A stretch of DNA of 64,000 nucleotides from a bacterium (GTDB lineage Bacteria; Oederibacteriota; Muellerivitia; Muellerivitales; Muellerivitaceae): positions 248,001-312,000 of the forward strand of contig DASZRK010000017.1 of NCBI GenBank assembly GCA_035549195.1, given 5' to 3'. The notes beneath the pieces are model-generated. The model was not told the origin of the DNA. It made no database searches and saw only the letters and a program-made list of their open reading frames with translations. Position 1 is the first letter of the stretch. Each line of letters opens with the position of its first letter. Of this stretch, positions 28,202 through 33,500 are shown piece after piece. Made by a program: the position numbers and the translations under genes.

Positions 28202-30169
28202 TTATAAGGAAACCTTGGTCCCCAGATAGATCGAAAGACCCGGGGTCCCATAGCCCAGGATCTCCTCGTACCTGTCGTCGAAGAGATTGTTCACCCGGCC
28301 GAAGAACTTGAGATGTTCGTCCACCGCATAGGAAGCGGCCAGGTTCACGAGCGCGTAGGACGACATCACGACGGTTTTGGCCGGATAAAAGGAGAAGTCC
28401 AGGTCCGGGCGTTCGCCCACATAGGCCACATTGATCCCGGTCTCCAGGGCGCTCCACCGATAATCGGCACTCACGTCCGCACGGCTCTGGGGACGGCGGA
28501 TGAGCTGGGTCCCGGTGTCCAGGTCCACGGCCCAGGTATAGGTGTAATCGGCCCGCAGGTGCAGGTCCTTCAACGGCTCGGACGAAAGGAAGGTCTCCCA
28601 TCCGAGGGTCTGGGCCTTGCTCACGTTGAAATATTCCCCATAGGGCGGAGTGGCGGTGGATTCGAAGTCGATCAAGTCCGAGAAGTCCGTATGGAAATAG
28701 GTCACTCCCACTTTGAGGGAGTCATGGGCGATCGGCTGTTCCACGCCCAGGTCCCATCCCTCGCTGGTCTCGGCCAGGAGCCCCGTGTTGCCGTAGGGGG
28801 AATAAAGCTGGTAGATGGAGGGTGCCTTGAACCCGGTGCCGTAGGTGGCCTTCCATTTGGTCCCCAGGCCCGGGACGAAATAACAGGCCGCGGCGCGGTA
28901 GGTGAGCTTTTGGCCGAAAGAACTGACCGCGTCCAATCGCCCGCCCAAGGTGGCGAAGAAACGCCCATCGATCGAGGTTTGGCTCTCGGCGAAATAACTT
29001 CCGGTGGTCGTGACCTGGTCGATGAAGGTGTTGGAAAGGCCGTAGCCATAATCGGTGGTGTCGTCCTCCCGGCCCCATTCCTGTTGGCCCTGGATCCCCG
29101 CCACCAGGGTCTCGCCTTTCACGACCTCCACATTGTTCTGCCAATGGGCCTCCACCATCTGCCCCTCGAAGACGCCCCGTTCATAATGGGAATTGGGATA
29201 AGCGACCGGATCGACGATGTCATCGGTGAATTTCTGCAGGTCATCCGTATAGGAAGCCCCCAGCTCCTGTTCCCAAGCTCCTTGGAACAGCTTGAGATGG
29301 ACCTGGTCACCCAGCGTCCATTGCCGCTCCTCCACGAAATAATTGGGATCGTCGCCGAAAGGACCGCTGGTGGCCGCCACATTGGTGCGGGACTGGCTGT
29401 AACGGGCGGTAAATCCGTCCCTGAGGTCCTGGACGCCGTTCAATCCCAGCCTCAAGGAGGCCGTGGTGTTGGCGTCCTGGCTGTTCACGCTGTTCCCGTC
29501 GGACCGGTCGGCGGAAGGAAAACCCTGGGTATCGAAGCGGGAGACCGAGAGGGCGGCGGTGCCCAGGTCATTGCCCGCCGAGGCGCTGGCCGCCTCCCGG
29601 AAGCTGTGGTAAGCCCCTCCCTCGAAAAGGAAGGAACCCTTGGGCGCGCCTTCCCCCATTTCGCTGATGATGTTGACCACCCCCGCGGTGGCGTTGGACC
29701 CGTAAACGGTGCTCAAAGGGCCCCGAACCACCTCGATGCGGCGGATGTCGTCGCAAAAGAACTGGTCCAAAGCATCGAACTGGCGCCCGATGGACATGGG
29801 ATTGTTCAGGGGGATGCCATCCAGGAGCACCAGGGTATGGCCCGCGTCGGCGCCCCGGGTGAAAAGGCCCACGTTCTCGCCCGGCGCCCCATTCTGGAGC
29901 AGCGTCAAGCCCGGGACCCCTTCCAAGGCCTTGAGGGCCGTGTCCGCCTGGCGTTGCTCGATGTCCTTGGCGGTGATGACGGTCATGGAGTTGGCGACCT
30001 GGGACACGGGCGTATCCAGCCGGTTGGCGGTGACCACCACTTCCGGCAGCACGGCCGCGGAGGGAAGGGTATCGCCCATGGGTTCGATGGCGGGATCGGC
30101 CCAAAGGCCGGAAGAAACTGCGGTCAGAAGAACGGAAGACAGCACGGCACGGCGAAGAACTGGATGCAT
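28202..30169 (-). CDS. btuB: TonB-dependent outer-membrane receptor, vitamin B12 type
   Basis: A 655-residue outer-membrane receptor with a signal peptide, a TonB-box-like stretch PEVVVTA (about residues 44-50), a plug domain (VITAKDIEQRQADTALKALEGVPGL, VLLDGIPLN, RRIEVVRGPLSTVYGSNATAGVVNI) and a C-terminal 22-strand barrel. The plug sequence is BtuB/CirA-like, and the upstream cobalamin riboswitch plus the surrounding B12 genes assign the ligand. It transports corrinoids with energy from TonB-ExbBD, which are not in the window. Confidence 0.92.
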   Translation of the reverse strand: MHPVLRRAVLSSVLLTAVSSGLWADPAIEPMGDTLPSAAVLPEVVVTANRLDTPVSQVANSMTVITAKDIEQRQADTALKALEGVPGLTLLQNGAPGENVGLFTRGADAGHTLVLLDGIPLNNPMSIGRQFDALDQFFCDDIRRIEVVRGPLSTVYGSNATAGVVNIISEMGEGAPKGSFLFEGGAYHSFREAASASAGNDLGTAALSVSRFDTQGFPSADRSDGNSVNSQDANTTASLRLGLNGVQDLRDGFTARYSQSRTNVAATSGPFGDDPNYFVEERQWTLGDQVHLKLFQGAWEQELGASYTDDLQKFTDDIVDPVAYPNSHYERGVFEGQMVEAHWQNNVEVVKGETLVAGIQGQQEWGREDDTTDYGYGLSNTFIDQVTTTGSYFAESQTSIDGRFFATLGGRLDAVSSFGQKLTYRAAACYFVPGLGTKWKATYGTGFKAPSIYQLYSPYGNTGLLAETSEGWDLGVEQPIAHDSLKVGVTYFHTDFSDLIDFESTATPPYGEYFNVSKAQTLGWETFLSSEPLKDLHLRADYTYTWAVDLDTGTQLIRRPQSRADVSADYRWSALETGINVAYVGERPDLDFSFYPAKTVVMSSYALVNLAASYAVDEHLKFFGRVNNLFDDRYEEILGYGTPGLSIYLGTKVSL

Positions 30170-30472: not shown

Positions 30473-31354
30473 TCATTTTTGGCGGGCCTTCTCGAAAATA
30501 TCGCAAAGATATTCGGCCAGGTTCGCCATGGTGGGCCCCGGGATCAGGTAATCCTCGTTGGTGAAACAATAGACCCGGTGTTCACGCACGGCCTTCAGGA
30601 CAGGAAGGGTGTCCCACACCCGGGTCTCGTCCTCGACCCCGCCGGACTTCAGATGCGCCTCGGCCAGGGCGTTGACGATGACCTCCGGGTCCCGTTTGAT
30701 CATTTGTTCCTTGGAGACAAGGGGATAAACGACGGGAGCATCGGACAGGATGTTCCGGCCTCCCGCCCATCCGATCAGTTCGTCCACGAAATTCCTGGGG
30801 CCCACCCCGTAGATCTGCTGCAGGCTCCCCGGGTTCCGGTCCACCACGAAAAGGACCGAGATGGGTTCGCGCCCCGCCGCCCGCCGCTTCACCGCCTCCA
30901 ACCTCTTTTGAAGGCGGTCCTTCGCGCGCTCGGCGTCCTTCTCCCGGCCCAGCGTCCTTCCCAAAAGGTCATAGGCGGCCAGCACATCCTCGATGGTCTG
31001 GCAGTCCAGCACCAGCACCGGCACCTTCAGGACCTTCAGGTTATCCACCGCCTTGCCGTGGAACTTCAGGGCCAGCACCAGGTCCGGCTTGAGGGAGACG
31101 ATCTTCTCATAGTTGGGATCGATCCATCCCCCGACCTTCTCCTTTTGACGGGCGGCGGGCGGGAACTTGCAGAAGTCGGTGACACCGACCAGGAGGTCCT
31201 GGGCGCCGATGTCATAAACGATCTGGGTCAGGTTGGGCGCCATGGAGATGATGCGTCGGGGAAGAGGGGCCGGTTCCTTGGCCCAGCCAAGGGCCGCGAC
31301 GCCCAGAGAGAGCCAGGCCGCGAGGGCCATCCGGAGCGTGAATGGGATTTTCAT
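30473..31354 (-). CDS. btuF: Secreted cobalamin ABC transporter substrate-binding protein
   Basis: A 293-residue periplasmic binding protein of the BtuF/FhuD helical-backbone class, with a signal peptide ending near residue 24 (LGWA) and the start block RRIISMAPNLTQIVYDIGAQDLLVGVTDFCKFP. It would deliver corrinoids to the BtuC-BtuD transporter encoded nearby. The ATG at 31354 gives a proper signal sequence; longer forms add an implausible N-terminus. It is divergent from the CWC gene with only 24 bases between the start codons, and its own promoter lies inside that gap and the CWC coding start. Confidence 0.9.
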   Translation of the reverse strand: MKIPFTLRMALAAWLSLGVAALGWAKEPAPLPRRIISMAPNLTQIVYDIGAQDLLVGVTDFCKFPPAARQKEKVGGWIDPNYEKIVSLKPDLVLALKFHGKAVDNLKVLKVPVLVLDCQTIEDVLAAYDLLGRTLGREKDAERAKDRLQKRLEAVKRRAAGREPISVLFVVDRNPGSLQQIYGVGPRNFVDELIGWAGGRNILSDAPVVYPLVSKEQMIKRDPEVIVNALAEAHLKSGGVEDETRVWDTLPVLKAVREHRVYCFTNEDYLIPGPTMANLAEYLCDIFEKARQK

Positions 31355-31361
31355 GGGGCCC

Positions 31362-31390
31362 AGTGTACAATCCGGCCTATGGCATTGCAA
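31362..31390. promoter_or_regulatory. Overlapping divergent promoters sharing a TGTACA core, both placed for leaderless mRNAs
   Basis: Plus strand: TACAAT (31366-31371) ends seven bases before the CWC ATG (31379). Minus strand: TACACT (31362-31367) ends seven bases before the btuF ATG (31354) and is preceded at 17 bases by TTGCAA (31385-31390). The two -10 elements overlap by two bases around TGTACA. Neither start codon has a Shine-Dalgarno. Only one polymerase could occupy the site at a time. Confidence 0.6.
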
Positions 31391-31570
31391 AACCAGCCCG
31401 AGACCAAGACCTGCGGCCGTTGCGGCGGAAAATTCCCCTGTCACGCCAAGACCGGCGGATGCTGGTGCGAAAAGCTTCCGGCCCTTCCCAAAAGCATCCC
31501 CGATTGCGACTGTCTTTGTCCCGCCTGCCTGGAGAAGGAATTGAAGGCCCAGGGGACCGAAAGGCCCTGA
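31379..31570 (+). CDS. Small cysteine-rich CWC-family protein
   Basis: A 63-residue protein with nine Cys residues in the pattern CGRCGGKFPC, GGCWCEKLP and CDCLCPACLEKEL, matching the Cys-rich CWC family, which probably binds metal. Its function is not established. It reads from an apparently leaderless start and its TGA overlaps the ATG of the signal-less BtuF-like gene (TGATG). The position between two BtuF-type genes suggests a link with corrinoid or cobalt handling, but this is inference. Confidence 0.75.
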   Translation: MALQNQPETKTCGRCGGKFPCHAKTGGCWCEKLPALPKSIPDCDCLCPACLEKELKAQGTERP

Positions 31571-32490
31571 TGGGACCCTTGCGCATCGCCTCGTTTCTTC
31601 CGGCCGCCACCGAGATGGTCTTTGCCCTGGGGTTGGGTGACCGGTTGGTCGGTGTCTCCCATGAATGCGACTATCCGCCCCAAGCCAAGGAAAAACCGGT
31701 CGTGGTGCGATGCGCCATGGACCTGGCTTCCTTGGACCTAAAACAGATCGACGAGACCGTCCGGAAAAGGGTCGGACAGGGCGGGAGCGTTTACGCCGTG
31801 GATGAGGTCGCCATACGGCAGCTTTCCCCCACCCTCATCATCACCCAGGACCTTTGCCAAGTCTGCGCCCCCTCGGGCAACGAAGCCACCCAGGTCCTCC
31901 GGGCCCTTTCCCCCGAGCCGGAGTTCCTCTGGCAGACGCCTCATTCCTTCCAGGATGTCCTGAACGACACCCAGGCCTTGGGGGAAAGGACCGGGACCGC
32001 CGATAGGGCCCAGGCTTTGGTGCGGGAGATGCGGCAAAGGGTCCAAGCGGTCCAACGCGCCACCTCGGACCTGCCGCCCGTGAAGGTCTTCTTCATGGAA
32101 TGGTTGGACCCTGTTTTTTGTGGCGGCCATTGGGTGCCCGAGATGATCGAATGGGCGGGGGGCCGTGACGAGATCGCGAAGGCTGGAATGGATTCGGTCC
32201 GGATCACCTGGGAAAAGGTCCTGGAATGGGACCCGGAAGTGCTGGTCGTCTCGCCTTGCGGTTTCAATGCCCGTCAGGCCTTGGAGCAAGCGCGTCTTTT
32301 GACGGATAGAAAAGGATGGCAAGAATTGAAAGCCGTCCAGGACAAACGGGTCTTCGCCGTGGACGCCAACAGCTATTTCGCCAAACCGGGTCCGCGGCTC
32401 GCGGACGGAGTGGAGCTCCTGGGCCATCTTTTCCATCCCTTCTCCGTGCCCTGGACGGGTCCGGCGGAGGCTTTCTTCCCCCTTCTTTAG
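31570..32490 (+). CDS. BtuF-like cobalamin-binding protein lacking a signal peptide
   Basis: A 306-residue BtuF-class binding protein starting directly MGPLRIASFLPAATEMVFALG, without any signal sequence, so it should be cytoplasmic. It has the two-lobe pattern (SHECDYPP, then VFFMEWLDPVFCGGHWVPEMIEWAGG and a WDPEVLVVSPCGF block). Homologues annotated as cobalamin-binding proteins occur in many phyla without a clear role. It is translationally coupled to the CWC gene and its stop overlaps the convergent btuC stop by four bases. Confidence 0.85.
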   Translation: MGPLRIASFLPAATEMVFALGLGDRLVGVSHECDYPPQAKEKPVVVRCAMDLASLDLKQIDETVRKRVGQGGSVYAVDEVAIRQLSPTLIITQDLCQVCAPSGNEATQVLRALSPEPEFLWQTPHSFQDVLNDTQALGERTGTADRAQALVREMRQRVQAVQRATSDLPPVKVFFMEWLDPVFCGGHWVPEMIEWAGGRDEIAKAGMDSVRITWEKVLEWDPEVLVVSPCGFNARQALEQARLLTDRKGWQELKAVQDKRVFAVDANSYFAKPGPRLADGVELLGHLFHPFSVPWTGPAEAFFPLL

Positions 32491-33500
32491 ATCCCTTTCA
32501 TGGGCTTGCGGTTGAACAAAAGCCATAGAAGGACCGGCACGCCCAAGAGGGCGGTCAGGACCCCCACGGGCACCTCGGTGGGGCCGAAGAAGGACCGGGC
32601 CACCGTGTCGCAGACCATCAAAAAAGCCGCCCCTCCCAAGGTCGCACAGGGCATCAAGTAGCGGTGGTCATTGCCGATCCAAAGCCGGTAGATATGGGGA
32701 ACGATGAGCCCCACGAAAGCGATGGGGCCGGTCAGGGCCACCACCGCGCTGGTCATCAAGGACGCCATTCCCAAGCTGGCCCCGATCAAAAGGTCCGTCC
32801 GGACCCCCTTCACCCTGGCCCACTCCTCGCCGGCGGAAAGCAGGTTGAGGCCCCGGGCCTGGGCCAAAAGCGTCAGGAAACCCAGGAAAAGCCAGCTGGC
32901 CAGGCGGCCCACGGTGGCCATTTCCACCATGTCCAGGCTCCCGATCATCCAATGAATCATGGCATAGGCCTGGGTGAAGTCCGCGATGTAGTAACCCAAG
33001 AGCACCAGGGCGTTGAAGAAATAGTTCACCGCCACTCCCGCCAACAAAAAAGTCACCGTCGAATAGGACCGCAGGCCCGAAGCCATCGAATGGACCAGGA
33101 AAAGGGAAAGGATCGCCCCCAGGAACGAGAAAAAGGTGATGAAGGAGAAACCGTGGACCGTCGTGGTCCATCCCAGGAGGATCGCCAACACCGCGCCGAA
33201 GGAACTGCCGCCGGCGACCCCCAGCGTGAAGGGGCAGGCCAAGGGATTACGGAGCACCGCCTGGAACACAACACCCGCGCAAGCCATGGCCGCTCCCGCC
33301 AGGGCCGCCAAGAGTTCCCGGGGAAGACGCACGCTGAAAAAGACCTGGGCATCCTGGTTGTCCGGGGCCGGAGGCCAGGTCAGGAAGACCTTTCCATAGG
33401 CCAGGGTGGTCGGCCCGATGAAAGGACAGACCGCCAGCACGATCAGGAAAAGAAGGATCGTGAAAAGGAGGACCCGGCCGGGATGGTGGGAATGGATCAT
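32487..33500 (-). CDS. btuC: Cobalamin ABC transporter permease, FecCD/BtuC family
   Basis: A 337-residue permease with about ten membrane helices and family motifs RLPRELLAALAGAAMACAGVVFQAVLRNPLACPFTLGVAGGSSFGA and GPIAFVGLIVPHIYRLWIG. It forms the channel of the BtuCD importer. The ATG overlaps the btuD stop (ATGA), so the two are coupled, with btuD first. The gene order btuD-btuC and the flanking btuF genes support cobalamin as substrate rather than iron-siderophore, although the families are close. Confidence 0.9.
   Translation of the reverse strand: MIHSHHPGRVLLFTILLFLIVLAVCPFIGPTTLAYGKVFLTWPPAPDNQDAQVFFSVRLPRELLAALAGAAMACAGVVFQAVLRNPLACPFTLGVAGGSSFGAVLAILLGWTTTVHGFSFITFFSFLGAILSLFLVHSMASGLRSYSTVTFLLAGVAVNYFFNALVLLGYYIADFTQAYAMIHWMIGSLDMVEMATVGRLASWLFLGFLTLLAQARGLNLLSAGEEWARVKGVRTDLLIGASLGMASLMTSAVVALTGPIAFVGLIVPHIYRLWIGNDHRYLMPCATLGGAAFLMVCDTVARSFFGPTEVPVGVLTALLGVPVLLWLLFNRKPMKGI

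Follow-up and report, generated by a model that had tools for sequence, protein, structure and literature searches.

How are two divergent genes expressed when only 24 bases separate their start codons? The question is raised by a putative vitamin B12 uptake locus in a 64,000-nucleotide stretch of bacterial DNA (the window), in which btuF (30473..31354, minus strand; ATG at 31354-31352) faces away from a gene for a 63-amino-acid Cys_rich_CWC protein (PF14375), the CWC gene (31379..31570, plus strand; ATG at 31379-31381). The first-pass annotation had placed two leaderless promoters in this gap and had read them as a mutually exclusive switch between the secreted BtuF and the pair formed by CWC and a cytosolic BtuF. 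Here, the gap is compared among nine genomes drawn from two families; several of these genomes are incomplete. Besides the genome under study (G000), they comprise eight relatives, designated by G-numbers below, that were obtained when btuF2 and btuF were used as queries against 98 relatives: seven belong to the family of G000, and the eighth, G008, to a sister family of the same order.

The intergenic gap and its gene neighbourhood

The product of btuF is a secreted BtuF-like binding protein that matches Peripla_BP_2 and has BtuF as its top NCBIfam match, at a score under the cut-off of that model. On the opposite strand, btuF2 (31570..32490, plus) encodes a BtuF-like binding protein without a signal peptide and is presumed to be co-transcribed with CWC; the CWC stop codon ends on the first base of btuF2, which makes a single operon of the two genes probable. 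Vitamin B12 would be the ligand of both BtuF and BtuF2. Furthermore, the locus encodes a BtuD-like ATPase next to a BtuC-like permease (btuDC; btuC at 32487..33500, minus strand) and a BtuB-type TonB-dependent receptor (28202..30169, minus strand) behind a cobalamin riboswitch (RF00174; 30263..30430, minus strand; 100 bits in Rfam), which itself lies downstream of btuF. The btuC gene converges on btuF2, and their stops overlap by 4 bp (32487-32490), a junction where 1-2 kb are present instead in relatives including G001 and G006. No space is left for a terminator between these two genes, so the btuDC and CWC-btuF2 transcripts should overlap.

Within the gap, the candidate -10 element of CWC-btuF2, TACAAT (31366..31371, plus strand), overlaps by two bases with that of btuF, TACACT (31362..31367, minus strand). 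Their union forms a 10-bp core, AGTGTACAAT (31362..31371, shared by both strands), with TGTACA (31364-31369) at its centre. Each hexamer ends seven bases before its own ATG, and in this respect the earlier description of the gap is correct to the base. The sequence likewise confirms the TTGCAA proposed as the -35 element of btuF (31385..31390, minus strand), which is located within the first CWC codons at a spacer of exactly 17 bases from TACACT, as well as the 24-base distance between the starts and the absence of a Shine-Dalgarno motif before both ATGs in this genome. Because the two -10 elements share two bases, RNA polymerase would bind in either direction but only one molecule at a time. 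The predicted start sites, placed 12 bases from each -12 position, are 23 bp apart, or 25 bp if both coincide with the ATG. A consensus promoter scan listed neither the plus nor the minus promoter, as the hexamers fall below its threshold.

In a single genome such a layout is weak evidence, since it is expected by chance about as often as it is seen. With the intergenic composition of this genome, TANNNT is found exactly seven bases before both ends in 0.41% of random 24-bp gaps, and in 1.4% when 5-8 bases are allowed. The pattern CAT-N7-AnnnTAnnnT-N7-ATG or its N6 version occurs 0-2 times per family genome, compared to 0-2 times for a reversed control pattern, with counts in G000 of 2 (N7) and 1 (N6). 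In another double-leaderless layout of this genome (G000:C2:315379-315408), the two ATGs enclose a long, almost perfect palindrome, GTTAACTATATAGTTAAC.

Conservation of the shared core

The core is positioned directly before CWC in all nine CWC-btuF2 loci. It reads AGTGTACAAT in seven of them and differs by one base in G006 (AGTGTAGAAT) and in G002 (CGTGTACAAT). The plus hexamer is TACAAT in eight genomes and TAGAAT in one, while the minus hexamer is TACACT in eight and TACACG in G002, which has lost not only this final T but also the minus -35. Mean pairwise identity amounts to 95.6% over the core, compared to 29.1% over the 41 upstream columns and 33.8% over the six bases before the start. 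The conserved block begins and ends exactly where the overlapping hexamers do, and identity beyond it is at random level. Near-invariance extends to positions that depart from the promoter consensus, namely position 3 of both hexamers and position 5 of the minus hexamer, all of them C. Among 10-mers upstream of neighbouring orthologues, compared in small samples, only those of dnaA (DnaA box-like), dnaN and btuB approach the conservation of the core.

A generic genome motif was considered as an explanation of AGTGTACAAT and rejected. The sequence occurs once in the 3.2 Mb of G000 and once in G004, both times at the btuF/CWC locus, and of 12 further copies in other family genomes, most appear to be in coding sequence (10 within stop-free spans of at least 250 amino acids, five in one conserved protein). 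In G005, the body of the CWC gene (L121:1080-1215) is overwritten by a REP-like palindrome, a repeat that has about 70 matches in the G005 genome, with the core promoter and the ATG left intact. Outside the order, CWC was not found beside btuF2 in the contig loci examined. Taken together, the shared core is taken as real on account of its conservation in nine genomes against flanks at random level, and the comparative evidence supports the earlier proposal of divergent promoters sharing one core: the predicted promoter is real by this measure.

Leader lengths on the two strands

On the plus strand, TA[CG]AAT and the CWC ATG are separated by 7 bases in seven genomes and by 6 bases in the other two, and this spacer lacks a Shine-Dalgarno motif in all nine. 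The CWC ATG occupies the same place in each of the nine, and in most of them the encoded N-termini are similar. A start further upstream is excluded by in-frame stops just before the ATG in G001, G006 and G007, by which the CWC start is fixed. A plus-strand -35 is absent from seven genomes; only G002 and G004 carry TTGGAA at 16 bp, which suggests that lineages may differ in their preferred direction. In the same two genomes (L118, L120) the 6-base spacing coincides with this TTGGAA.

How common such starts are in G000 was assessed on 424 kb of contig C17, in which a simple gene caller gave 212 first-in-unit genes. In eight of these, the start codon is preceded by TANAAT at a distance of 6 bases, compared to 0-1 genes at neighbouring distances, whereas Shine-Dalgarno-like motifs prevail (118 of 212 genes; 34 in the control). 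About 5% of C17 genes seem leaderless, with TANAAT 6 bases from the ATG; these genes favour a distance of 6 rather than 7 bases, and their spacer is C-rich, often with CCCC before the ATG. The 6-7-base distance between -10 and ATG, the missing Shine-Dalgarno motif and the existence of leaderless genes in G000 together indicate that the CWC-btuF2 mRNA is very probably leaderless and that this is a conserved trait. Among signal-less BtuF2 homologues of unrelated phyla, TANNNT is found 5-8 bases before the ATG in 14 of 53 (L064-L066, L069, L071-L073, L076, L080, L088, L089, L103, L109 and L114), for example TATAAT-7 in Dadabacteria and TAGATT-6 in Gemmatimonadetes. This pattern suggests repeated leaderless expression of BtuF2 homologues across phyla.

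On the minus strand, TTG is found at exactly 17 bp from TACACT in seven of the nine genomes. This -35 overlaps with the CWC coding sequence, and an independent constraint on it is for that reason weakly shown, with CAA used for six of six Gln codons covering it (p about 0.01, judged against local codon usage). The distance from the minus -10 to the btuF start is 7 bases in G000 only and 33-54 bases in the relatives, mostly with a Shine-Dalgarno-like motif. In G008, btuF is replaced by cobB, whose product is a cobyrinate a,c-diamide synthase (above the NCBIfam cut-off) and thus again belongs to B12 metabolism; its start lies 76 bases from the minus -10, and the promoter elements are kept as TTGAAA-17-TACACT. 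A -10 element next to the btuF start codon is not conserved in homologues. Comparison of TACACT ACGGGCACTGGATTCCAACAGGTGGGGGCCCGC ATG in G004 with TACACT GGGCCCC ATG in G000 makes it look as if btuF of G000 has lost about 25 bp of leader, including the Shine-Dalgarno motif, relative to a G004-like state.

From this arrangement, btuF is probably leaderless in G000, a prediction limited to this genome. Of the two leaderless mRNAs proposed by the first-pass annotation, the plus transcript is upheld by TA[CG]AAT-N6/7-ATG without a Shine-Dalgarno motif in all nine genomes, while the adjacent -10 of btuF is confined to G000. The 24-base gap is not conserved among the relatives, in which BtuF starts at a different distance from the same -10; a differing start in homologues is an outcome that the first-pass annotation had itself named as contradicting its model. 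The double-leaderless layout is a local, derived state, given that the minus start lies 7 bases from its -10 only in G000 and 33-76 bases away elsewhere.

Regulation, competing readings and significance

In the window, Rfam detects no riboswitch other than the one before btuB, and in the relatives none separates the core from btuF or CWC. The btuB riboswitch is preceded by its own promoter-like TTGACA-17-TAGAAC, with TTGACA and the 17-bp spacer present in seven of seven genomes. Riboswitch control of the divergent pair was rejected on these grounds: the riboswitch precedes btuB alone, with its own promoter, which leaves btuF and CWC-btuF2 outside its reach. The same promoter makes it unlikely that btuB is transcribed only by read-through from btuF. 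G006 has a second cobalamin riboswitch just upstream of btuD (L122 6573-6733) that is absent from G000.

The reading preferred here, with a probability of roughly 0.7, is that the gap functions as a conserved bidirectional sigma70-type promoter with a leaderless CWC-btuF2 output, and that btuF has become leaderless locally. Plus transcription would begin at the CWC ATG or one base earlier, yielding a leaderless CWC-btuF2 mRNA, a state that would have been kept in the family and in the one sister-family genome. In the other direction, TTG...-17-TACACT would normally give a btuF transcript whose leader, about 25-50 nt long, mostly contains a Shine-Dalgarno-like motif; in G000, which is without about 25 bp of that leader, btuF would probably be leaderless too. 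The likely role would be a low, coupled basal expression of the periplasmic and cytosolic B12-binding proteins, with the riboswitch governing only btuB from a separate promoter.

The main rival adds an overlapping operator, in which a dimeric regulator would bind the near-palindrome A(G/T)TGTACA(A/C)T and repress or steer transcription both ways, with B12 as one conceivable signal. Such a site would account for the nearly palindromic core, for its occurrence as a single copy at this locus in G000 and G004, for the invariance of the non-consensus C/G positions of both -10 elements beyond what a plain promoter needs, and for a conservation no lower than that of the dnaA-upstream 10-mer, which resembles a DnaA box, and of the btuB-upstream 10-mers at the same loci. 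However, 10 bp would be short for an operator, no regulator gene is seen at the locus, and no regulon is visible, as 424 kb of G000 contain no further intergenic KTGTACAM. Moreover, the palindrome is broken in G006 (TGTAGA) and at its outer base in G002, whereas the plus -10 stays, and the operator is best regarded as a tentative possibility. It is unlikely that the 24-bp sequence holds everything needed to control two leaderless mRNAs and has a core that is also read by a regulator balancing the periplasmic and cytosolic B12-binding proteins, outside the riboswitch.

That only the plus promoter is real appears doubtful. The minus TACACT would then be a by-product of symmetry, and btuF would be driven from within its leader in the relatives, or by read-through from btuDC. 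The position of the plus start, locked in nine of nine genomes next to a variable minus start, would fit, as would the convergence of btuDC on btuF2 through the overlapping stops in G000, and the minus -35, being in coding sequence, is explicable by a conserved FQ/LQ peptide. Against this, AGTG beyond the plus -10 is conserved in 8-9 of nine genomes and is not a TGn extended -10, the TTG keeps its exact 17-bp distance in seven, and G008 has another divergent gene yet retains the minus elements. The mutually exclusive switch between two leaderless mRNAs, producing either the secreted BtuF or the CWC/cytosolic BtuF pair, is improbable. Its geometry is present in G000, and steric exclusion is to be expected, as opposing polymerases cannot bind together at overlapping, opposed -10 elements (PMC12825309), but among the nine genomes only G000 has a 24-bp gap and a predicted leaderless btuF, and neither an activator, a regulator nor a second state was found. 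Bidirectional promoters of Escherichia coli show basal transcription too weak to compete, although activating one side can repress the other (PMC12825309; PMC10268837). With no known activator at this locus, coupled low-level expression is simpler than a switch. Finally, a symmetric motif that arose between the start codons by accident would agree with the chance frequency of the layout in one genome, but is contradicted by the nine-genome conservation and scarcely credible.

The bidirectional promoter proposed here resembles those described by Warman, Grainger and colleagues (PMC12825309; PMC10268837) in its opposed, overlapping -10 hexamers, here with a core in nine of nine genomes, in the simultaneous occupancy that is not expected, and in the implied start spacing of 23 bp, which together with 18 and 10 bp is among the common spacings of that class (PMC12825309). 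It differs in that start codons are located at the predicted start sites, for CWC in nine genomes and for both genes in G000, and in a core that is near-invariant between genera, whereas the studied examples are from E. coli and Salmonella. Leaderless genes of Deinococcus carry a -10 motif, most often TACACT, 6-7 bp before the open reading frame (PMC12340547). The locus shares TANNNT 6-7 bases before the start and the missing Shine-Dalgarno motif with the leaderless genes of Deinococcus-Thermus (PMC12340547) and Mycobacterium tuberculosis (PMC3898074). Unlike in those systems, such starts are a minority mode here (roughly 5% of genes) in a genome that uses Shine-Dalgarno motifs, and a divergent partner shares the same bases. 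Known cobalamin riboswitch control of B12 uptake (RF00174) is recognizable in the same gene cluster, where the riboswitch precedes btuB, but here it lies downstream of btuF and not before btuF or CWC-btuF2. A literature search of open papers gave no matching case of a leaderless bidirectional promoter.

By its sequence features, the locus is a strongly conserved case of an already known class of bidirectional promoters, so far studied mainly in the two enterobacteria named above. The core has been kept nearly unchanged across several genera in spite of random flanks and the exchange of one partner gene, an argument for firing in two directions being selected and not incidental. The locus furthermore joins bidirectional initiation to predicted leaderless translation, and the leadered btuF of the relatives and the predicted leaderless btuF of G000 would form a natural pair for the effect of leader loss on expression.
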